A stretch of DNA of 34,476 nucleotides from Lachnospiraceae bacterium (GTDB lineage: Bacteria > Bacillota > Clostridia > Lachnospirales > Lachnospiraceae): assembly GCA_017620155.1 (NCBI GenBank), contig JAFZQY010000036.1:1-34476 (forward strand), in the 5' to 3' direction. This document shows positions 16,971 to 29,756 of this stretch, piece by piece. The translations under genes and the position numbers were made by a program. Every line of letters starts with the position of its first letter. The stretch's first letter is position 1. The notes beneath the pieces are model-generated. The model did no database searches. It had not been told where the DNA came from and was given only the letters and a program-made list of their open reading frames with translations.

Positions 16971-17012
16971 AAAAGTCGCAGGTCCAACGGACCTGCGGCT
17001 TTGTTTTTGGGG
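16971..17012 (+). terminator. Rho-independent terminator of the sugar-uptake/GH3 operon
   Basis: A 12-bp stem (16974-16985 with 16989-17000, one G-U pair) with an AAC loop is followed by TTGTTTTT. It ends the sugar region, 13 nt before the first regulatory repeat of the next island. Confidence 0.92.
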
Positions 17013-17024
17013 AAAATGAAAAGA

Positions 17025-17066
17025 TGACAGATTTGACAGATTTTCTTCGGAACGTTCATGTATAGT
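17025..17066 (+). promoter_or_regulatory. Island promoter A: tandem TGACAGATT operator and -10
   Basis: Two perfect tandem copies of TGACAGATT (17025-17033, 17034-17042). The second TGACA (17034-17038) is followed by 22 nt and then TATAGT (17061-17066). The 14-bp core is centred at about -41.5 from the expected start near 17073. A TTGACA is present but 22 bp from the -10, too far to be an ordinary -35. The same layout occurs at 19003-19044 and 24369-24410. Confidence 0.7.
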
Positions 17067-17098
17067 ATGGGTATATTCTGAAAGGAGGAACTGTAGAT

Positions 17099-17509
17099 AT
17101 GAAATATTGTTGTGAGGATTGTTTAAAGTACAAGGTTTTTGATGAAGCATTTTCGAAGAACTGTGTGGATGGCGGCACTTGCGACTACTGCGGAGCCACG
17201 CATGTTAAGGTGGCAGATGTCACGACCTTAAGAGACAGCATTCTTAAGAAGATCGAAAAGGAGTATTCTTCTACGGATTTGATTGAAGGCTTCCATAATG
17301 ATCTGGACGGGACATATATTGATTATGAGATGATAGATCCCAGATATCATGGGTGTATCCGTGAACTTCACAGCCCCATGTCTATTCATCAGATTATGGA
17401 ATTCGATTATGATGAGCTGGATGAGAAACTGGCAGAAGACATTTTCGAGGGATATGAAGACTTCGATTATGAGGATTACATAGACAACGAGCAGATATAC
17501 GGGGATTGA
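17099..17509 (+). CDS. Small zinc-ribbon protein resembling a HEPN/RES N-terminal domain
   Basis: A 136-residue protein. The first ~40 residues hold C4, C5, C8, C22, C28 and C31 in CCEDC and CDYCG pairs, which should bind zinc. The pattern CCEDC...CDYCGATHVKV and the following amphipathic helix resemble the N-terminal domain found ahead of RES-type toxins (HEPN/RES NTD). No RES domain follows; the rest is acidic and tyrosine rich (DYDELDEK, DFDYEDYIDNEQ). AGGAGG lies 10 nt before the ATG. It converges with the WYL gene. Its promoter carries the same operator as the AAA+ operon, so it probably belongs to that system. The family resemblance is from memory and is moderate. Confidence 0.75.
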   Translation: MKYCCEDCLKYKVFDEAFSKNCVDGGTCDYCGATHVKVADVTTLRDSILKKIEKEYSSTDLIEGFHNDLDGTYIDYEMIDPRYHGCIRELHSPMSIHQIMEFDYDELDEKLAEDIFEGYEDFDYEDYIDNEQIYGD

Positions 17510-17524
17510 TATGATCAATCCCCG
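17500..17524. terminator. Possible bidirectional terminator between convergent genes
   Basis: A perfect 11-bp inverted repeat with an ATG loop overlaps the stop codon of the zinc-ribbon gene and lies between two convergent genes. T-runs are poor on both sides, so termination efficiency is uncertain. Confidence 0.5.
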
Positions 17525-17537
17525 TTCTGAATAATCC

Positions 17538-18926
17538 TTATTGAAGTCTCTCGTACTTTTCGTATATCTCTTTAATCTTATTTCGCACTTCATCTACCAG
17601 CTCCGGCGGATCGATGAGTGTGAGTGTGTTGGAATGCTCGACAGCAAAGTCGATTGCATTTTCGCGCTGGACGCCAAGAACTGTGGCCTTGATATAGTTC
17701 TTTGGATTGCCGTTTACATCGAGCTCTTCTTCGGGGTGAGCAATTGGCGTTTCTTTCAACTTGATCTTATTTCCGAAATGATCGATCAGTATCTGCAGTG
17801 TGATGGTCGTACACTCGAAATGGCAGTCGACCAGGTCTTGTTCACCGTAAATCTTCATTGCCGGATATGTGTTGGTATACTTGATCGCATCAAATTCGAG
17901 CACTCCGTTTTTTCTATGAAAGAAAGGAGCCAGAGTAGGAGGTATGGGCCTCCTTTTATATACTTTTTCGGTAATGTTGCCATCCTTATCCTTTTTGGTT
18001 CCCTTGTGCGGGCGGATCTCGAGAATACGGTCTATTCTGAAATGAACGGGATTCTCGTATCCGTAATGAGTCGCGATCAGATAGTATTCTCCGTTGTTCC
18101 AGATCATGGCATAGGGGTTTAAGAAGTAGGGCTTATTCGGATTCCTGGGATGAAAGTCAAGCTGCCTGGTCCCTTCGGTCATGTCATACATGCCGTATGT
18201 GATTTCTATCTGCTGTTCCTCCCTAATTGCCTCGTAAAGCATCTGAATATGTGCGAGTATGGTCTCGCTGTTGGCCGGAAGCCAGTAATGCCCGCTAGAC
18301 TCTGGGGTTTTGGAAGTTTTATTCGCATGAGTACTTACTTTGGCCGGAAGTTTGTTATAGACCTGCATAAGAAGACCCACATCTGCCGGATCATATACGG
18401 ACTTAAGCACGCTGAGGCGTGAGATCAGATAGTTCTTTTCGGGTTCTGACAGAAACCTGTTGCTTGTAAGTCCTGCACATATCATATCCAGATCACTGCC
18501 GTCCAAAAGTGGTTCGAAGTAGTATCTGTTCTGAGTTCCCTTGGCATTTTTATTCGCTCCGCTTACGATCCCGCTGGCCTGACTGGTTTTGACCCTGCCG
18601 CCGGTCAGTATGGTCATGATCCAGCCGAGAGTCTGATATGCTTTCGTTCGTGGATTAAGCAAATCGTCAAGCAGGTTTGCTTTTCTGTATAGGTTTCTCG
18701 CGGAAAAAGAGTAATCATCCGGGATCATGGATGGAAAGATCGCGTTTAGTTTCTGTGTGATCTCGGGCACGGACATAACATTTTCCGGTCCGCTGTAAGC
18801 CTTCAGTACCGCCATGATAAGGGGCAGGTCAAAGCTATGGAGAGCGTTTTTTTCATCATCACGGATAGACTGCTGGTTTGACAGGGGGGCCGGTGGAATC
18901 ATGTTCGAGGGTGTTGAAGGTGGCAT
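17538..18926 (-). CDS. WYL-domain transcriptional regulator
   Basis: A 462-residue protein. Residues about 30-90 look like a winged-helix region (FDLPLIMAVLKAY, VPEITQKLNAIF, FSARNLYRKANLLDDLL). Residues about 236-305 are the WYL ligand-binding core with FLNPYAMIWNNGEYYLIATH and the RIDR motif at 297-300; the name-giving W-Y-L is Y281-Y282-L283 here. A C-terminal extension domain (about 350-462) follows. WYL proteins sense nucleotides or nucleic acids and often control stress or phage-defence genes. AGGAGG lies 8 nt before ATG 18926. It is divergent from the AAA+ gene, and the shared control region contains the island operator. Confidence 0.88.
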   Translation of the reverse strand: MPPSTPSNMIPPAPLSNQQSIRDDEKNALHSFDLPLIMAVLKAYSGPENVMSVPEITQKLNAIFPSMIPDDYSFSARNLYRKANLLDDLLNPRTKAYQTLGWIMTILTGGRVKTSQASGIVSGANKNAKGTQNRYYFEPLLDGSDLDMICAGLTSNRFLSEPEKNYLISRLSVLKSVYDPADVGLLMQVYNKLPAKVSTHANKTSKTPESSGHYWLPANSETILAHIQMLYEAIREEQQIEITYGMYDMTEGTRQLDFHPRNPNKPYFLNPYAMIWNNGEYYLIATHYGYENPVHFRIDRILEIRPHKGTKKDKDGNITEKVYKRRPIPPTLAPFFHRKNGVLEFDAIKYTNTYPAMKIYGEQDLVDCHFECTTITLQILIDHFGNKIKLKETPIAHPEEELDVNGNPKNYIKATVLGVQRENAIDFAVEHSNTLTLIDPPELVDEVRNKIKEIYEKYERLQ

Positions 18927-18987
18927 ATATTAATCCTCCTTATTGCCGGAAAAGCGCCCAAACAGGTGGTTTGTAAATGATATAACG

Positions 18988-19017
18988 ATTATAGGATAAA
19001 GATGACAGATTTGGCAA
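18988..19017 (-). promoter_or_regulatory. Promoter of the WYL regulator gene, with the operator inside it
   Basis: Minus-strand TTGCCA (19012-19017), an 18-bp spacer and a perfect TATAAT (18988-18993). The tandem operator (19003-19020) covers its spacer and -35, so a protein bound there would block this promoter. Confidence 0.75.
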
Positions 19018-19044
19018 CTTTATATATGAGGGGTATGTTTTAAT
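19003..19044 (+). promoter_or_regulatory. Island promoter B: tandem operator and -10 of the AAA+ operon
   Basis: TGACAGATT (19003-19011) followed by the weaker copy TGGCAACTT (19012-19020), then 22 nt after the second pentamer the hexamer TTTAAT (19039-19044). The geometry is identical to promoter A. An alternative reading is TTGGCA (19011-19016), 17 or so bp and TATGTT near 19034-19039. The leader to the ATG is about 53 nt. Confidence 0.65.
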
Positions 19045-19103
19045 GTTACCGTGGCAAGGCCGGAAGGTCTGAATTATAACGAAAAAATACGGAGGAACAC
19101 ATC

Positions 19104-21197
19104 ATGAATAGAATCAATCTGTTAAAGCCCGATGTTGTAAATGGTTTTCTGGAAGGGGGAAAGGGTCAGGAGGTGACCTATCTGAATATCGATCCGGAAC
19201 TATCTCCCGACAAGCTGGACGAAGATATCGCGAATGGTGCAACGTATCTGTCCGAAGTCCGTGAACTTATGAACAAAAAGGTCAGCCGTGTGGTAGCGAT
19301 CAAATGCAGGAGCCGCGAGGAAGGGCTTCTCGGAGTGTCGTATCTGGCGTCCTACTACAATATGAAGGACGGAGCGGATGCAAGTGAAGTGGACTGCGAT
19401 GAAAACATCGTAGCGGAAGTTCGGACCAAGTCTCCTTTTGAGATGACCGAGAAAGATATCGCCGAGGATATGGACAGGGCCGGGGACTTTGAGTTTACGG
19501 ATCAGTACACACCAATAGACGGGCTCACGGATGATTGGGAACCTTCAGCCGAATCCGATGATGAGGATGAAGATGACTGGGAAGACGGGGCAATCTGGGA
19601 GGAGACACCGTGGAAGATCCCGATCGTGGATATGGGGGCTATCAGCGTCGATATCGCTGACTGTAACAATCCATTTTATTCGGGCAACTATGGATTCGAC
19701 AGACGCACCGACAACAGAAACCAGACGCCGTACTGGAAGTATACCCGCAGGGAAAGTATCTGTATAGAATTCAATGCTCAGGGCGGAACACTGGGACTTG
19801 GCGGATTTAACAATGATGTCTTTAAGAGGTTTAAGAATAACAAGCATCTGTATGTGCTGGTGATCGATACGGCTGCGGAGTTCAATGAGCAGCTGCGGAG
19901 AGATTCAATCGATGATTATGATGATGAAGATGATTATTACAATCCCTTCGTATGTTGCGGAGACTGGTATGAAGCCAACCTGACCGGGTTCGTGCTCGAA
20001 GAGGCTGCAGAGATAATCTCCATTCATCACGGCGAAGACAAGCTTGAGAAGTATTATCAGAATCTGTTTGAGAACTGGGTCGGCTTTTACCGCTTTTCTC
20101 TGGACAAGGGCTTCCCGGTGGCAGAGATCTCCAAGAAGATCGTCGATATGGACAATCCGTCAAAATCCGATCTGATCGACAAGGTCGTGAGCTATGTGAT
20201 CAAGGACTTTGATGAGCCGGCTGAGCTTACCGAGACAGATTTTAATGTTCTCTACAAGCTCCACGGCCTGGGCTTTAAGCGGAAGATCGACGAAAAAGAA
20301 CACAAGAGCCTCAATAAGATGGAGAAAAATCTTGTCGGGATGGAGGATATCAAGGATCAGATCACTTCCATAGTCGAGACTTTCCGATTCATGAAAAAAA
20401 GAAAAGCGGCAGGCCTGCAGGGCGGCGGATACCACAATGTCCATATGATGCTGGGTGCACCCGGAACCGCCAAGACTACAGTCGCACAGCTTCTCGGAGA
20501 GATCATGGCAGAGGAGAAACTTTTAAAGAGCAACAGGTTTGTGTCCGTTAACGGAGCCGAGCTCAAGGGCATGTATGTCGGCCACTCTGCACCGAAGGTC
20601 AAGTCGCTGTTTGAAAAAAATGACATTATATTTATTGATGAGGCATATGCGGTGGCAGCAGGCCGTGATGGCGAGAGTGATTCCTTCAGTCAGGAAGCCA
20701 TAGCACAGCTGATTGTGGAACTGGAAAAACACGGACTCGACCGTCTGGTCATTTTTGCAGGATACGGCGGGCCGAGAGTGAGTGCAAAAGACAACAGGAT
20801 GCAAGACTTCGTGAATGCGAACCCCGGTATCAGGAGCCGCATCAACTCTACTATATACTTCGAGTCTTATGACGCCGATCAGATGGTGGAGATTTTTAAA
20901 GGACAGGCCAGAATCAATCAGTACATAGTTCCGAAAGCCGCAGATAAATATGTTCATGCATTCTTCGAGAAGCGCGTATCCGCACCCGATTTCGGTAACG
21001 GCCGTGAAGCCAGGAGTCTGCTCGAGAACGCTATGGTCCAGGCTGCCAGAAGGATCGCTTCGGTTCCCGATAAGGATCTGACCAGGAAGCAGCTTCAGCA
21101 GATCACTGTGAATGATATCCGCCTCGCGATAGAGAAGATGAAGAATGCCACGGTGACCCAGAAGGGTACATGCCGAAAACTGGGCTTCGGGGCGTGA
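19104..21197 (+). CDS. CbxX/SpoVK-type AAA+ ATPase with unknown N-terminal half
   Basis: A 697-residue protein. The C-terminal ~300 residues form an AAA+ module of the CbxX/CfxQ-SpoVK clade: VGMEDIKDQI (411-420), Walker A GAPGTAKTT (451-459), Walker B IIFIDEA (508-514), the FAGY sensor region (551-554) and NPGIRSRI (573-580) with the likely arginine finger; a helical lid follows. Relatives remodel protein complexes as hexamers. The N-terminal ~400 residues match nothing I recognise and contain two very acidic stretches (about 142-168 and 268-279). CGGAGG precedes the ATG. It is the first gene of a plus-strand operon and the only clear enzyme of the island. Its target is unknown. Confidence 0.88.
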   Translation: MNRINLLKPDVVNGFLEGGKGQEVTYLNIDPELSPDKLDEDIANGATYLSEVRELMNKKVSRVVAIKCRSREEGLLGVSYLASYYNMKDGADASEVDCDENIVAEVRTKSPFEMTEKDIAEDMDRAGDFEFTDQYTPIDGLTDDWEPSAESDDEDEDDWEDGAIWEETPWKIPIVDMGAISVDIADCNNPFYSGNYGFDRRTDNRNQTPYWKYTRRESICIEFNAQGGTLGLGGFNNDVFKRFKNNKHLYVLVIDTAAEFNEQLRRDSIDDYDDEDDYYNPFVCCGDWYEANLTGFVLEEAAEIISIHHGEDKLEKYYQNLFENWVGFYRFSLDKGFPVAEISKKIVDMDNPSKSDLIDKVVSYVIKDFDEPAELTETDFNVLYKLHGLGFKRKIDEKEHKSLNKMEKNLVGMEDIKDQITSIVETFRFMKKRKAAGLQGGGYHNVHMMLGAPGTAKTTVAQLLGEIMAEEKLLKSNRFVSVNGAELKGMYVGHSAPKVKSLFEKNDIIFIDEAYAVAAGRDGESDSFSQEAIAQLIVELEKHGLDRLVIFAGYGGPRVSAKDNRMQDFVNANPGIRSRINSTIYFESYDADQMVEIFKGQARINQYIVPKAADKYVHAFFEKRVSAPDFGNGREARSLLENAMVQAARRIASVPDKDLTRKQLQQITVNDIRLAIEKMKNATVTQKGTCRKLGFGA

Positions 21198-21221
21198 AAC
21201 GGTATGAAGGAGGATTTGGCG

Positions 21222-21470
21222 ATGATTGAAGAGAAAACATATGAACAGTTAACAGAGGCGTTATCGAAAGAGCGAGAGAGCAACCGGATCCTGCAGGAAG
21301 TTAACAGCACGCTGGAGAGGGAGATTGAGAAACTCAGGCAGGAATTGGAAGAAACCAGAGAGACTCTTGAGGAGAATACTATTGCAGCGCTCCGAATGGG
21401 GAAAAGGCACAATGCTCTGTTTAAAGAATTGCAAGAGACCAGGAGGCGCTTCGCTAAACACTCTCGATAA
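21222..21470 (+). CDS. Small coiled-coil protein
   Basis: An 82-residue protein that is almost entirely heptad-repeat coiled coil, rich in Glu, Leu and Arg (NSTLEREIEKLRQELEETRE). ATG 21222 has AAGGAGG 8 nt upstream; the ATG at 21204 lies upstream of that site and is unlikely. It begins 24 nt after the AAA+ gene and is surely cotranscribed, so it may be an oligomerising adaptor or substrate of the ATPase. No homologue is recognised. A 7-bp hairpin (21470-21490) without a T-run follows the stop. Confidence 0.7.
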   Translation: MIEEKTYEQLTEALSKERESNRILQEVNSTLEREIEKLRQELEETRETLEENTIAALRMGKRHNALFKELQETRRRFAKHSR

Positions 21471-21608
21471 CACCGCGAAGTATGCGGTGTGAACCATGAG
21501 TTTATAGAGAATTCCGCTATCCGGACATAGAATAGATGTTGGAATAAGCTATAGATGGTGCCTGATAGGAGATGAATGGCATTGCTAAATAGTCGGAGGA
21601 GACACTTG

Positions 21609-22526
21609 ATGAATATAAATCTGTTGCAATGTAAGGCTATATTTGATGCTCTGCTGGACAAAACGATCCGGTGGGTAGAACAGGGTTCAACAGATGCTGT
21701 TCAGTATTGTTTTGTTCTTCTTCCGATGAAGAACCTTGAGCAGCAAAAAATGATCCTATATCGGTATGACAGACGATCCCGGACTATCTGTAAGCGGGTC
21801 GAAATCATCTCGACCACGGAGCGGCCCGATGAGTACTTTGATTTCAACCCGGATCAGAGTATACCACTATCTAGAGAGGATCTCGATGACTATGTGACCA
21901 ATGATTTGCTGGAAGAAGCACTGAACCTTCGCTCAAGTTTACCGGCTACGGGCCGGCTTAAGTGGGACGGTCTGTATCGGACTTATTGTATGCGCCTTTA
22001 CGGAGATTCGTTTTATGAGTTGATGGATTTGGATGTGGATGTCAACACTCTTGATATATCATGGCAACATATATGGTTAGAACCGATGCTTTGGCACGGA
22101 TTTGGAATCAACGGTATGGACGGAGAGTATTTGAACTATGACTGTCTGCATGTTGACGATAATATCGTTATCTTTCATACATTTGCCATTGAATATATTT
22201 ATAATACTGACGTGGATGAAATGGCGGGAACCTTATCATTGAAAAACAGAAACATCAGGGCCTTTAATGTTTATGAAGTTTGTGATGATAAGCCTATAAT
22301 TGGTTCGCCGTTTAAATTGAAGTATATTCGAGAAACCGGTGAGTTCCTTCAGACATTCTTCACTTTGGATCAGGCTAAACAATTCGTTAAGGCAATCCTT
22401 ATTAGAAGATTGAGGACAGAATTGGCCAAATGCAAGCCTGAAGTAAGAGATGAATTCTATAAATCCTTTAGCCCGGAAGAAAAAGATAGGATGTTAGAAA
22501 TCCTCGGCTTAAGCACGGAGTATTAA
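21609..22526 (+). CDS. Protein of unknown function in the AAA+ operon
   Basis: A 305-residue soluble protein with no signal peptide or membrane segment. It is rich in aromatic and acidic residues (WQHIWLEPMLWHGFGING, NYDCLHVDDNIVIFHTF) and ends in a helical, charged region. I recognise no family. ATG 21609 has CGGAGGA about 8 nt upstream; an in-frame ATG at 21576 has its own AGGAG but with a short 4-nt gap, so a protein 11 residues longer is possible. It looks more AT rich than the AAA+ gene, which may hint at separate acquisition. The 138-nt gap before it has no convincing promoter. Confidence 0.72.
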   Translation: MNINLLQCKAIFDALLDKTIRWVEQGSTDAVQYCFVLLPMKNLEQQKMILYRYDRRSRTICKRVEIISTTERPDEYFDFNPDQSIPLSREDLDDYVTNDLLEEALNLRSSLPATGRLKWDGLYRTYCMRLYGDSFYELMDLDVDVNTLDISWQHIWLEPMLWHGFGINGMDGEYLNYDCLHVDDNIVIFHTFAIEYIYNTDVDEMAGTLSLKNRNIRAFNVYEVCDDKPIIGSPFKLKYIRETGEFLQTFFTLDQAKQFVKAILIRRLRTELAKCKPEVRDEFYKSFSPEEKDRMLEILGLSTEY

Positions 22527-22547
22527 TGCGGAAACAATAAATATGCA

Positions 22548-22566
22548 AATGGTGCCAGGCACCATT
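22548..22566. repeat. GGTGCC-A-GGCACC palindrome before an unknown gene
   Basis: A perfect 9-bp inverted repeat about a single A, ending one base before the AGGAG of the next gene. Part of the same sequence (ATGGTGCC) recurs at 21554-21561 ahead of the preceding gene, also followed by AGGAG. A related GTGCCCGGCAC lies at 32544-32554. Confidence 0.5.
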
Positions 22567-22576
22567 AGGAGAAATG

Positions 22577-23635
22577 ATGAAAAGAGAAAAATATTATCTG
22601 ATAACATATCCGTCGTCCTGGGGTATGGGAAGCAATTACGATACAGGGCTTATAACCGAAACAAATCTCAGGGAGCTGATCATACGTGAGACTGACCGGT
22701 ACAGGGACGGTGACAGATTCGCCGATGACAGGTTTTCCGGAACATGGAATGAAGAGGTTTTCTGTGACAGTGATGATCCGGAAGAGGTTATAGCCGATGT
22801 GATAAACAAGAGGCTTAACACCATATCTACCTACGCGGGCCATAATGATCTGATCCTGCTCCCGGAATCTATACCGGTAAAAGTATCGGATATGAAGCTG
22901 GAGAATACTATAGTAAGACTGACCAATCAGTTTGGATTTGGCAGGGATATCATATTCGGCGAGGGCTACTTCACGCTGTATTCCGTATATCTTGATTCGG
23001 CTTTTCTGGCGGAAGTCGGTATCGAACGTTCGCTTGAATCAGACTGCTGGAGCAGATTCGTTGATTACAGCCTCAAAAATGTGGCTGAAAACCACATGTC
23101 TGGGTATAGAGAGTTGAGTTATCTTTTGAGAGTAGAGGAGGATAAGCTCGCCAGAATGAACGCTAAACAGGACGGCAAAGAAATAAAGCATAGGGGCGCA
23201 TATATTACGGATCTTTTACCTGAGATCGCTACTCCCGATTACGTTGCGGATATGATAGCGGAAGCCCAGGCTACGATAGACAAATTTTTCAACCTGCCTG
23301 TGATGGAAGACACCTATTCTGAACATCTGTATGATCTGAATAATTGCCGTTATGAGTACAGGCGACAAATTCTTGAGCAGATCATGGAAGAAGACAAGGC
23401 TGCGGATCATACGCAGATAGCATATGATTATCCCATATCTACAAAAGAATTCGGAACCATATATGAGAATACGGAACATGATGGTTCACATTATCTGGCA
23501 TATTCTGAACTTTTCCAAAAGGGATATGACATGAGATATCTGATCGCTGACCTCTCGAACGATGCAGACACGGAGGAAGAACTGGGCGCTCCCGATCTTG
23601 TCGCCGTATTCCGCTCCGCCTTCGCCTACGATTAA
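22577..23635 (+). CDS. Protein of unknown function, last gene of the AAA+ operon
   Basis: A 352-residue protein without signal peptide or clear membrane segment. The N-terminal part (KYYLITYPSSWGMGSNYDTG, then acidic residues) and the mid-region helices match no family I know. ATG 22577 is 5 nt from AGGAG (22567-22571); the adjacent ATG 22574 is only 2 nt away, so it is less likely. The gene follows the 305-residue gene by 50 nt on the same strand and stops one base before the stop of the convergent minus-strand gene. Confidence 0.72.
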   Translation: MKREKYYLITYPSSWGMGSNYDTGLITETNLRELIIRETDRYRDGDRFADDRFSGTWNEEVFCDSDDPEEVIADVINKRLNTISTYAGHNDLILLPESIPVKVSDMKLENTIVRLTNQFGFGRDIIFGEGYFTLYSVYLDSAFLAEVGIERSLESDCWSRFVDYSLKNVAENHMSGYRELSYLLRVEEDKLARMNAKQDGKEIKHRGAYITDLLPEIATPDYVADMIAEAQATIDKFFNLPVMEDTYSEHLYDLNNCRYEYRRQILEQIMEEDKAADHTQIAYDYPISTKEFGTIYENTEHDGSHYLAYSELFQKGYDMRYLIADLSNDADTEEELGAPDLVAVFRSAFAYD

Positions 23636-23636
23636 A

Positions 23637-24335
23637 TTAGATGATTTCAAGTTGATCGATGTCCTCCCAGTCGAGATCTATATGATCGGGATAGCCGGGG
23701 GCGTATATCGGACGGAGAATGACACCTGTTTCATCCATTGATTCTATGGTCAGCAAGACTGAGTCGTCTCCGTTCAGATAACAACGGGTGCCAATCCGCA
23801 GCTCCTGATTCAAAGCGTATTTATCCGCATCCGAACCGTACACCCCGGCGTTATCTCCGGTCTTAAGCATTTCGGCGATATGGATCGGGAGACCGGGATA
23901 TATTTTTGCATAGGGACATATCAGATCGACCGACATTTCATCCGGCGCGCCTTTGCCTTTTCTGTAGATGACGATAGGCAAGGGGTATGCCTGCTCGCGT
24001 TCTTCCGATTCATACAGTTCTATTAACGCTTGGTCAATATCGTCATTAAGTTCCTCCTCCAGGAATTCTTCGTCATATCCTTCCGGGAGCGGAAAGCGGA
24101 TAACCAGGATCGGAGAATCCGGATAATCCGGCACAGTCCCGTTAAATGACGGCCGGCAATAATACATATGCCGGGCCAGTGCATACGGTGTCAGGTCCTC
24201 AAGCGTTCCGGTATATTTCCGATGAAGGAAGTGATATGAATCGAAGAAACCGTAACCGAGACGATCGTTAAGTGCTTTTCCCGTCATAGCCCATGCTTTC
24301 GACATGGGGATCGAATTCCACTCTGTATGTTTCAT
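23637..24335 (-). CDS. Protein of unknown function at the distal end of the island
   Basis: A 232-residue protein without signal peptide or membrane helix. It has an acidic central stretch (YDEEFLEEELNDDIDQALIE, about 95-115) and a C-terminal beta-rich part; no family is recognised. GGAGG precedes ATG 24335. It is transcribed toward the AAA+ operon and its stop is separated from the neighbour's by one base. Its promoter carries the same operator as the other island promoters (site C), which argues that it belongs to the same system even though it faces the other way. Confidence 0.75.
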   Translation of the reverse strand: MKHTEWNSIPMSKAWAMTGKALNDRLGYGFFDSYHFLHRKYTGTLEDLTPYALARHMYYCRPSFNGTVPDYPDSPILVIRFPLPEGYDEEFLEEELNDDIDQALIELYESEEREQAYPLPIVIYRKGKGAPDEMSVDLICPYAKIYPGLPIHIAEMLKTGDNAGVYGSDADKYALNQELRIGTRCYLNGDDSVLLTIESMDETGVILRPIYAPGYPDHIDLDWEDIDQLEII

Positions 24336-24368
24336 GTTCTGCCTCCTTCCGCGACGCTGCGCATCATC

Positions 24369-24410
24369 ATAGTATCATCAGCTCTTCAAGAAAAAATGAC
24401 ATATCTGACA
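24369..24410 (-). promoter_or_regulatory. Island promoter C: tandem operator and -10
   Basis: On the minus strand TGTCAGATA (24410-24402) and TGTCATTTT (24401-24393) form the tandem, and 22 nt after the second pentamer comes TACTAT (24374-24369). Geometry equals promoters A and B. The leader to the ATG at 24335 is about 27 nt. Confidence 0.65.
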
Positions 24411-24441
24411 TCTTTTTCGAAAAAGAATCGCACTGAAACCG

Positions 24442-29003: not shown

Positions 29004-29756
29004 ATGTCTATTCTCGAAGTAAACAACATTCATAAAAGTTTCGATTCCGCAACGATACTTAAGGGGATCACTTTTTCCATGGAGGAAGGTGAGTCCGTCT
29101 CGATAATCGGGTCTTCCGGCAGCGGCAAGACCACGCTGCTTCGGTGTCTTAATTTCCTGGAGAGCGCAGACGAAGGGACCATCGCGGTACGGGGCGAGAC
29201 TATATTCGATGCGCATGCTCCGGTTCCGGGGCCTGAGGAGATCCGCAGGCGCAGGCTGCATTTTGGGCTGGTTTTCCAGCAGTTTAATCTTTTTCCGCAA
29301 TATACCGCGCTGGAGAATGTGTGCCTGGCACCGAAGCTCACGACTCAGAATCCGGATATCAAAGCTATAGAAGAACACGGCCGAAAACTCCTTGATCAGA
29401 TGGGCTTATCGGACCGCATGAATAACTACCCTCATCAGCTCTCGGGCGGTCAGCAGCAGCGTGTGGCCATCGCGAGGGCATTGGCGCTCAGCCCGGATAT
29501 CCTCTGTTTTGATGAGCCCACCTCGGCTCTTGATCCGGAGCTTACCGGGGAGGTACTCAAGGTCATCAGGTCGCTCGCCGAGCAGAAGACTACGATGATC
29601 ATAGTCACGCATGAGATGAGTTTTGCTCACGATGTATCCGACAAGGTCATCTTCATGGACGGCGGAGTCATCGTTGAACAGGGCGCTCCGGATGAGGTCA
29701 TCGATAATCCCAAAGAGGAGCGCACGAAACAGTTTCTGGCAGGTTATAACGGCTGA
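29004..29756 (+). CDS. glnQ: Polar amino acid ABC transporter ATP-binding protein (GlnQ type)
   Basis: A 250-residue ATPase: Walker [10 protein letters not shown] (36-44), Q-loop in [10 protein letters not shown], signature LSGGQQQR, Walker [13 protein letters not shown] and the switch histidine in VTHEM. ATG 29004 gives the standard [14 protein letters not shown]-terminus; a TTG at 28980 in the same frame is less likely. The nearest ribosome-site-like sequence is GGAGT 13 nt upstream. It drives import with the permease upstream. Confidence 0.94.

Follow-up and report, generated by a model that had tools for sequence, protein, structure and literature searches.

What kind of regulation is implied when three promoters of one gene island, two on one strand and one on the other, carry the same operator at the same distance from a -10-like hexamer and have no -35 element to go with it? 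The question is raised by a contig of a Lachnospiraceae bacterium (JAFZQY010000036.1 of assembly GCA_017620155.1), the whole of whose 34,476 bases constitutes the window analysed here (contig C57 of a genome, G000, of 2.84 Mb in 125 contigs), and by wyl, a gene between two of the promoters that encodes a WYL-domain protein. Judged from sequence comparison, a regulon with its activator at -41.5 is well supported and the WYL protein is its likely regulator. The best explanation, held with moderate confidence, would be activation from that position by a WYL dimer, combined with self-repression at the operator next to its own gene.

Three operators at one spacing

A preliminary description of this DNA had named three operators, TGACAGATTTGACA (17025-17038, plus strand; op1), TGACAGATTTGGCA (19003-19016, plus strand; op2) and TGTCAGATATGTCA (24410-24397, minus strand; op3), each with a -10-like hexamer behind it. 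This was confirmed throughout, with operators and hexamers where it had put them and a gap of exactly 22 nucleotides (nt) in all three. With the operators taken as 24-base-pair (bp) elements, the features are:

17020..17043, plus strand: op1, a 24-bp pseudo-palindrome (core 17025-17038), upstream of the open reading frame (ORF) 17099-17509
17061..17066, plus strand: -10-like TATAGT, 22 nt after op1
18998..19021, plus strand: op2, a 24-bp pseudo-palindrome (core 19003-19016), between wyl and the gene for an AAA ATPase
19039..19044, plus strand: -10-like TTTAAT, with TGT in front, 22 nt after op2
24392..24415, minus strand: op3, a 24-bp pseudo-palindrome (core 24410-24397), upstream of the ORF 24335-23637
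24369..24374, minus strand: -10-like TACTAT, with TGA in front, 22 nt after op3

Exact matches to TGWCANATWTGNCA in the window number three, and these are the operators themselves. With up to two mismatches there are 20, double readings of the palindrome included, against a shuffle mean of 10.4, a loose count that taken alone says little. When the hexamer is taken as -12 to -7 the operator centre falls at -41.5, so that the class II position asserted earlier follows from the 22-nt gap at all three window sites.

These three sites and those described below give ten reads, in every one of which the best correspondence to TTGACA at spacers of 15-19 is 0-2 of 6 positions. Summed over the ten, the match of the downstream hexamer to a -10 element, followed across gaps of 0-35, peaks at 47 for gap 22, the next value being 33, a peak that is partly due to selection, some sites having been chosen with a -10 term. 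TGn precedes the -10 in three of the ten (op2, op3 and one site, L063b, of a related locus), and in site alignments inspected by eye no column between the operator flank and the -10, the -26 region included, is conserved. The earlier statement that no normally spaced -35 is present thus holds for the hexamers it named; at op2, in the forward direction, it depends on which -10 is chosen, as an alternative TTGGCA-17-TATGTT (9 of 12 matches) could also be used.

Conservation beside related WYL genes

Relatives of the locus were reached through the AAA protein. The most informative is L063 (JAKSRY010000017.1, from a Lachnospiraceae metagenome-assembled genome), where the layout is kept: a small gene, a wyl gene on the opposite strand (its product 39-40% identical in alignments), one gene, and the AAA gene. 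By tblastn there is no likeness between the small gene of the window and that of L063. In front of the L063 small gene stands CGACATTTTTGACA, followed after 22 nt by TATTCT, and between wyl and the AAA operon stands TGACAAAATTGACC, followed after 22 nt by TTAAAT. With a matrix trained solely on the three window sites and covering the operator alone these two rank 9th and 8th of 35,890 positions; with flanks and -10 included, the top three of 35,878 are both sites and the reverse reading of one of them. The L063 score of 17.2 is reached at 8 of 1,480,600 positions of 117 other loci, some of them in loci that do hold sites (the set left out the known site-holding loci and L142-L171 and still contained L047, L105-L107 and L122). 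The comparison of orthologous promoters that had been proposed therefore comes out in support of a shared regulon with fixed -41.5 geometry.

In a second relative, L092 (genome G478), wyl (33-34% identity) and the AAA gene are co-directional, and the best of 37,902 positions is GGACAGATTTGTCT, followed after 22 nt by TATCCT, directly upstream of the AAA gene, where it overlaps the final codons of the WYL gene. More broadly, WYL stands beside AAA in six of the eight loci examined (the window and five of seven others). At L061 and L066, which have no WYL match nearby, no site was present near AAA among the four best positions.

In the search for full-length WYL orthologues, a single sequence run against 150 family genomes gave 86 matches at an expectation value (E) of at most 0.001, own genome included, the best of the others, at 43.7 bits, covering the WYL domain only. 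A two-row WYL alignment searched against 392 genomes of the order (E 1e-25) gave one other genome, G478, and a three-row alignment against 391 genomes of the class (E 1e-22) again gave only G478. No relative came from genome contigs or viral contigs searched with the WYL protein, nor from viral contigs searched with the two-row alignment, and a plasmid search returned three records at ~23%. The AAA alignment gave eight loci among genome contigs, two of them on the same contigs as L061 and L062 and four of them examined, and 20 loci among viral contigs, matching in the AAA part only, at 26-32%. The remaining two of the eight genome-contig loci, L069 and L070, were rejected, as the match is confined to a short stretch of the AAA domain and there is no WYL match.

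Occurrence in the genome, the genus and the family

The genome-wide motif search suggested by the preliminary description was run, and in the bacterium's own genome TGWCAGATWTGNCA has six exact places, the three operators and three on other contigs. The latter lie inside ORFs of 310-762 residues, and the hexamer 22 nt away agrees with TATAAT at 0-3 of 6 positions. Outside that genome AGATGWCAGATWTGNCA occurs at three places in the 150 family genomes, all within ORFs and with 1-2 of 6 TATAAT matches at 22 nt.

The claim that there is no other copy is right for the window, with its three exact matches, and does not extend to the genome, where contig C16 has one more regulatory-looking copy. This fourth palindrome, TGACAGATATGGCG, has TATGAT exactly 22 nt away on both sides. 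On one side of it is a gene that we take to be of SIMPL type (weakly matched by the NCBIfam model 'oxidative stress defense protein', E 1.9e-4), and on the other a small gene whose match to RstR, of XRE type, is weak (E 8.2e-5, below the cut-off). The surroundings (L104:1059-10565) form an island-like cluster of ATPase, ClpP-like, SIMPL-type and small XRE-type genes, together with one for a 1,123-residue protein in which two SpoVK-like AAA domains are combined with an FtsH-like end. Within the genus, G152 (contig C10, L132:8210-9633) has AAAGATGACAGAATTGGCA-22-TATAAT before clpP (above the NCBIfam cut-off), which is followed by a gene that looks XRE-like by eye and has no NCBIfam match, and G153 has TGACAGATCTGACC-22-TATTAT before a small ORF.

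When a 21-mer, widened to admit the C16, G152 and G153 forms, was searched without a -10 term in 397 family genomes, 37 places were found outside the genus against 8 for a reversed control (our own count from the table). Examination covered 28 of the 37, seven being without a locus and two having failed a mid-locus test: 24 of the 28 lie in ORFs of at least 168 residues, and the hexamer at 22 nt matches TATAAT at 4 of 6 positions in two and at 5 or more in none. Within the genus there are five places, those of the window, of C16 and of G152, with 4-6 of 6 matches; they form a biased set in that three were picked with the -10 in view and C16 came from a pattern naming T at both hexamer ends. 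The fairest test of the 22-nt spacing is G152. It is one of seven one-mismatch places found without a -10 term and the sole one of them with at least 5 of 6 matches at 22 nt (TATAAT, 6 of 6); it is intergenic, and only it and one other of the seven lie outside ORFs of at least 60 residues. Of the other motif places obtained with no -10 term in the search, 39 in all (the 28 examined 21-mer places, six other one-mismatch places, the three of AGATGWCAGATWTGNCA in family genomes and two further own-genome places), none reaches 5 of 6 at 22 nt and three reach 4.

The likely regulator and its targets

The genes concerned in the window are:

17099..17509, plus strand: target 1, a 136-residue protein with a weak HEPN_RES_NTD1 match (E 2.3e-5)
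17538..18926, minus strand: wyl, 462 residues, the proposed regulator, with a WYL domain at residues 226-305
19104..21197, plus strand: target 2, a 697-residue SpoVK/CbbX-like AAA ATPase (Pfam AAA and AAA_lid_6)
23637..24335, minus strand: target 3, a 232-residue protein, downstream of op3

The gene wyl sits on the opposite strand between the genes for the 136-residue protein and the AAA ATPase. According to the favoured explanation its product (18926-17538) would bind, as a dimer, the 22-24-bp pseudo-palindrome AAAnnTGWCAnATnTGWCAnnTTT centred at -41.5, and would bring RNA polymerase to promoters with a -10 and no -35, the bound dimer replacing the -35 contact. It would thereby turn on the gene for the 136-residue protein, the AAA operon, the gene for the 232-residue protein and probably the divergent gene pair on C16. 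The same dimer at op2 would cover the wyl -35 and spacer and repress its own gene, and the WYL domain may sense a nucleic-acid ligand.

The window protein matches PF13280 (E 4.2e-10) and the PADLOC WYL model (E 1.2e-16), and the WYL domain was matched in all six homologues. Some 220 residues precede that domain; within them R77, R81 and K82, in a presumed recognition helix, are common to the window and L063 proteins, and R81 is also present in that of L092. In the WYL domain R297 and R300 are invariant in the six homologues. PF25583, the WCX dimerisation domain, matches one of the six (E 0.0012), which is not the window protein, and no solved relative was found by sequence (no matches at E 0.01).

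A number of results weigh against this explanation. The strongest, where the WYL protein as the only regulator is concerned, is that G152 and G153, of the same genus, bear sites and that no orthologue of the island WYL was found in either, only WYL-domain matches. Apparent XRE-type regulator genes lie behind the sites of C16 and G152. No helix-turn-helix (HTH) family was found in the six WYL homologues in a Pfam scan at E 10. At L062, L064 and L067, whose WYL proteins are 21-24% identical, there is no site near AAA among the four best positions. The L092 site convinces by its place and not by its score, since 24 of the 1,480,600 positions of the 117 other loci score at least as high as its 14.4. 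The L063 sites were first noticed by eye, and C16 and G153 were found by a pattern naming T at both ends of the -10. Two further promoters of the own genome, C24:25230 and C96:17046, fit the palindrome-plus-10 pattern with TGACAAGTTTGTCC.

The operons behind these last two look, by reading, like sugar-ABC transporters. Corresponding promoters occur in relatives within the genus, G150 and G041 keeping TGACA, G151, G153 and G154 having TAACA and G152 TAGCA; with four of six lacking TGACA there and two keeping it, C24 and C96 were set aside as members by judgement, and the sugar-operon promoters probably belong to another regulon. Promoters of this type carry a long motif (TGACAAGTTTGTCCTATTT, or forms with TAACA or TAGCA) 22 nt from a -10-like hexamer.

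The identification of the WYL protein as regulator, as first suggested, is accordingly favoured by its position in three genomes (window, L063 and L092) and weakened by G152 and G153. Those two genomes are what most invites the supposition that some other regulator of the same specificity, be it of XRE type or a WYL protein other than this one, is what binds these sites and that the island wyl is only one of its targets, for which the small protein with the weak RstR match at C16 and the XRE-like protein after clpP at G152 would offer candidates. Against it, the palindrome-plus-10 pattern (drawn from five sites, of the window and L063, and thus bound to match those) has in the whole L063 genome only the two places that flank its WYL gene, a WYL gene stands beside the site in the window and in L092 as well, and Pfam scans show no XRE domain in six L063 genes or in ten window genes. 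We regard this alternative as unlikely, though the most serious of those considered. Returning to the WYL protein, the fuller proposal is tentative: a WYL activator in a true class II position (-41.5), with a symmetric operator that fires two divergent promoters (C16) and self-repression at op2, may coordinate AAA and protease modules on at least two contigs of one genome.

Activation or repression

The region between wyl and the AAA gene holds one further element of relevance:

18988..19017, minus strand: predicted wyl promoter TTGCCA-18-TATAAT (11 of 12 matches)

It is the best-scoring promoter-like site of its region and is placed for wyl. Promoter-like sites there number 15, no more than in shuffles (14.1), and its weight consequently derives from score and place. 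Its -35 and most of its spacer are covered by op2, an overlap that suggests self-repression of wyl. A complete promoter is thus predicted for wyl itself, the targets behind op1 and op3 having no -35 for the -10 used.

Could the WYL protein repress all these promoters? BrxR is a precedent for repression by a WYL protein through inverted repeats (PMC9122601), and op2 is placed on the predicted wyl promoter as well as across the possible TTGGCA-17-TATGTT, which a repressor model could use. Repression has no need of an exact 22-nt spacing, yet all ten reads have it (a part of them having been selected with it), and the promoters have no -35 for the -10 used, which makes general repression rather improbable. 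Activation, which we infer from the same features, would leave op2 as the place where the bound protein also represses.

Palindrome or direct repeat

The preliminary description saw in the operators direct repeats with a 9-bp period, contrasting with the inverted repeats of other WYL regulators. That contrast is not upheld. In the element, approximately AAAnnTGWCAnATnTGWCAnnTTT, the TGWCA units read the same on both strands, and for this reason the core cannot demonstrate a direct repeat. Nine sites, with C16 counted once, were compared: 13 columns are conserved in at least eight (A-3, A-2, G2, A3, C4, A5, A7, T10, G11, C13, T17, T18 and T19), with stricter conservation in the distal half (TGACA) than in the proximal half (TGNC). 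Mirrored columns 2/13, 4/11, 5/10 and -2/17 are complementary in all nine sites, -3/18 in eight, and -4/19 and 7/8 in six. The inverted-repeat sum is 68 of 108 at the centre against 42 for the next best register (38 against 26 in five sites). The element is better called a pseudo-palindrome, given the core pairs, the two-sided arrangement at C16 and the dimeric WYL regulators of the literature; we infer a dimer as its probable ligand.

A true tandem repeat of 9-bp period, bound head to tail, would be compatible with any of the regulators considered. It would account for a period-9 self-match of 35 of 45 in five sites, where no other period exceeds 21, but that repeat scores well because TGWCA is self-complementary. 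Column pair 3/12 does count against two-fold symmetry, being complementary in one site of nine and identical in five, and the flanks alone mirror at 28 of 45, little above the 21.7 expected from composition. With the inverted-repeat sum favouring the central register and a single C16 copy lying 22 nt from TATGAT on both sides, head-to-tail binding seems improbable. That the three promoters are alike by chance, as might be supposed of a short motif in three copies spotted by eye, is highly improbable in view of its conservation in other loci and the genome-wide counts, and is already contradicted by the L063 promoters.

Other features of the island and of related loci

The HEPN_RES_NTD1 match of target 1 scores 25.2 bits, below the gathering score of 27.4. 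The nearest NCBIfam models to the AAA ATPase are SpoVK, CbbX and EccA, for all of which it is far below cut-off, and it has weak PADLOC matches to TRIP13 and IetA. For target 3 nothing in Pfam, NCBIfam or PADLOC came within the limits applied. Upstream of op1 there is a further feature:

16972..17002, plus strand: hairpin resembling a terminator, with the glycoside hydrolase gene upstream of it and op1 downstream

A different, perfect palindrome, GGTGCCAGGCACC, stands at window positions 22551-22563, directly upstream of the ORF at 22574; with one-mismatch copies at 29320 and 32543 it occurs three times in all, against 0.67 in shuffles.

Behind the WYL/AAA pair of L063 (8001-16100) and of L092 (1-8966) come genes for a PD-(D/E)XK protein and for a helicase of UvrD type, the latter recognised by Pfam in L063 and by reading of the translation in L092. 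The L063 pair is far below the addAB cut-offs and therefore is probably an accessory helicase-nuclease module, and there may be a connection with DNA damage or with defence against phages. L062:4972-8896 has a divergent WYL-AAA pair without the TGWCA operator, its intergenic region showing by eye a different inverted repeat (CTTCGCA...TTGCGAGAAG) before a TATAGT.

Relation to known regulators

Class II activators such as CRP and lambda CI bind with their dyad near -41.5 or -42 at promoters with a defective -35. The island promoters resemble theirs in both respects, the proteins being of other families. Among WYL regulators, literature matches listed for Lachnospiraceae, for AAA ATPases in Clostridia and for direct repeats contained nothing on this system. 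An operator so defined, with exact spacing and a built-in self-repression site, lends itself readily to a reporter assay for the WYL group in Lachnospiraceae, and offers a handle on when an island of AAA or helicase-nuclease type is switched on.

Comparison is possible with four WYL systems. BrxR is a repressor with 11-bp inverted repeats, separated by a 5-bp spacer, between promoter and gene (PMC9122601). Shared with it are a WYL protein as the likely regulator, inverted repeats and two boxes in the regulator's own island, one of them (in BrxR) before its own gene; its mode of action, the length of its repeats and their place between promoter and gene are different. PafBC and SiwR of mycobacteria are WYL activators dependent on the -26 region, and SiwR has a 19-bp imperfect palindrome before the neighbouring operon and depends on two residue pairs, R38/R42 of the HTH and R204/R207 of the WYL domain (PMC10693628). 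The likeness lies in a probable WYL activator and, for SiwR, the imperfect palindrome; unlike theirs, the promoters here have no conserved -26 element. R77/R81 and R297/R300 have the same spacings as the two SiwR pairs, a correspondence by spacing, with the proteins unaligned.

DriD of Caulobacter crescentus, also an activator, comes closest. Its 20-bp pseudo-palindrome stands at a constant distance from weak -10 elements, the very poor -35 being placed at the centre of the site. The promoter region of driD itself, a divergent one, contains one such site; the divergent operon is activated from it, and the authors expect binding there to impede driD (PMC12340889). The island has in common with it a pseudo-palindrome of ~20 bp, the constant -10 distance, the poor -35 and the site in its own divergent promoter region. 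The differences are a centre at -41.5 (that of DriD being, by our own reckoning, at ~-32), the sequence (TGWCA-N4-TGWCA with AAA/TTT arms, the DriD consensus being ATACGAC-N7-GTCGTAT), the phylum and the targets, and while the island promoters would work in the manner of those of a WYL activator, it is because of the dyad position that the system does not belong to the DriD type. None of the three WYL activators compared here, DriD, PafBC and SiwR, uses the -41.5 position; these activators act at -26 or on the -35, and -41.5 would imply different contacts with RNA polymerase. The arrangement looks like the DriD architecture moved about one helical turn upstream, and the system as a whole, on the comparisons made here, like a new relative of the known WYL switches with a shifted position.

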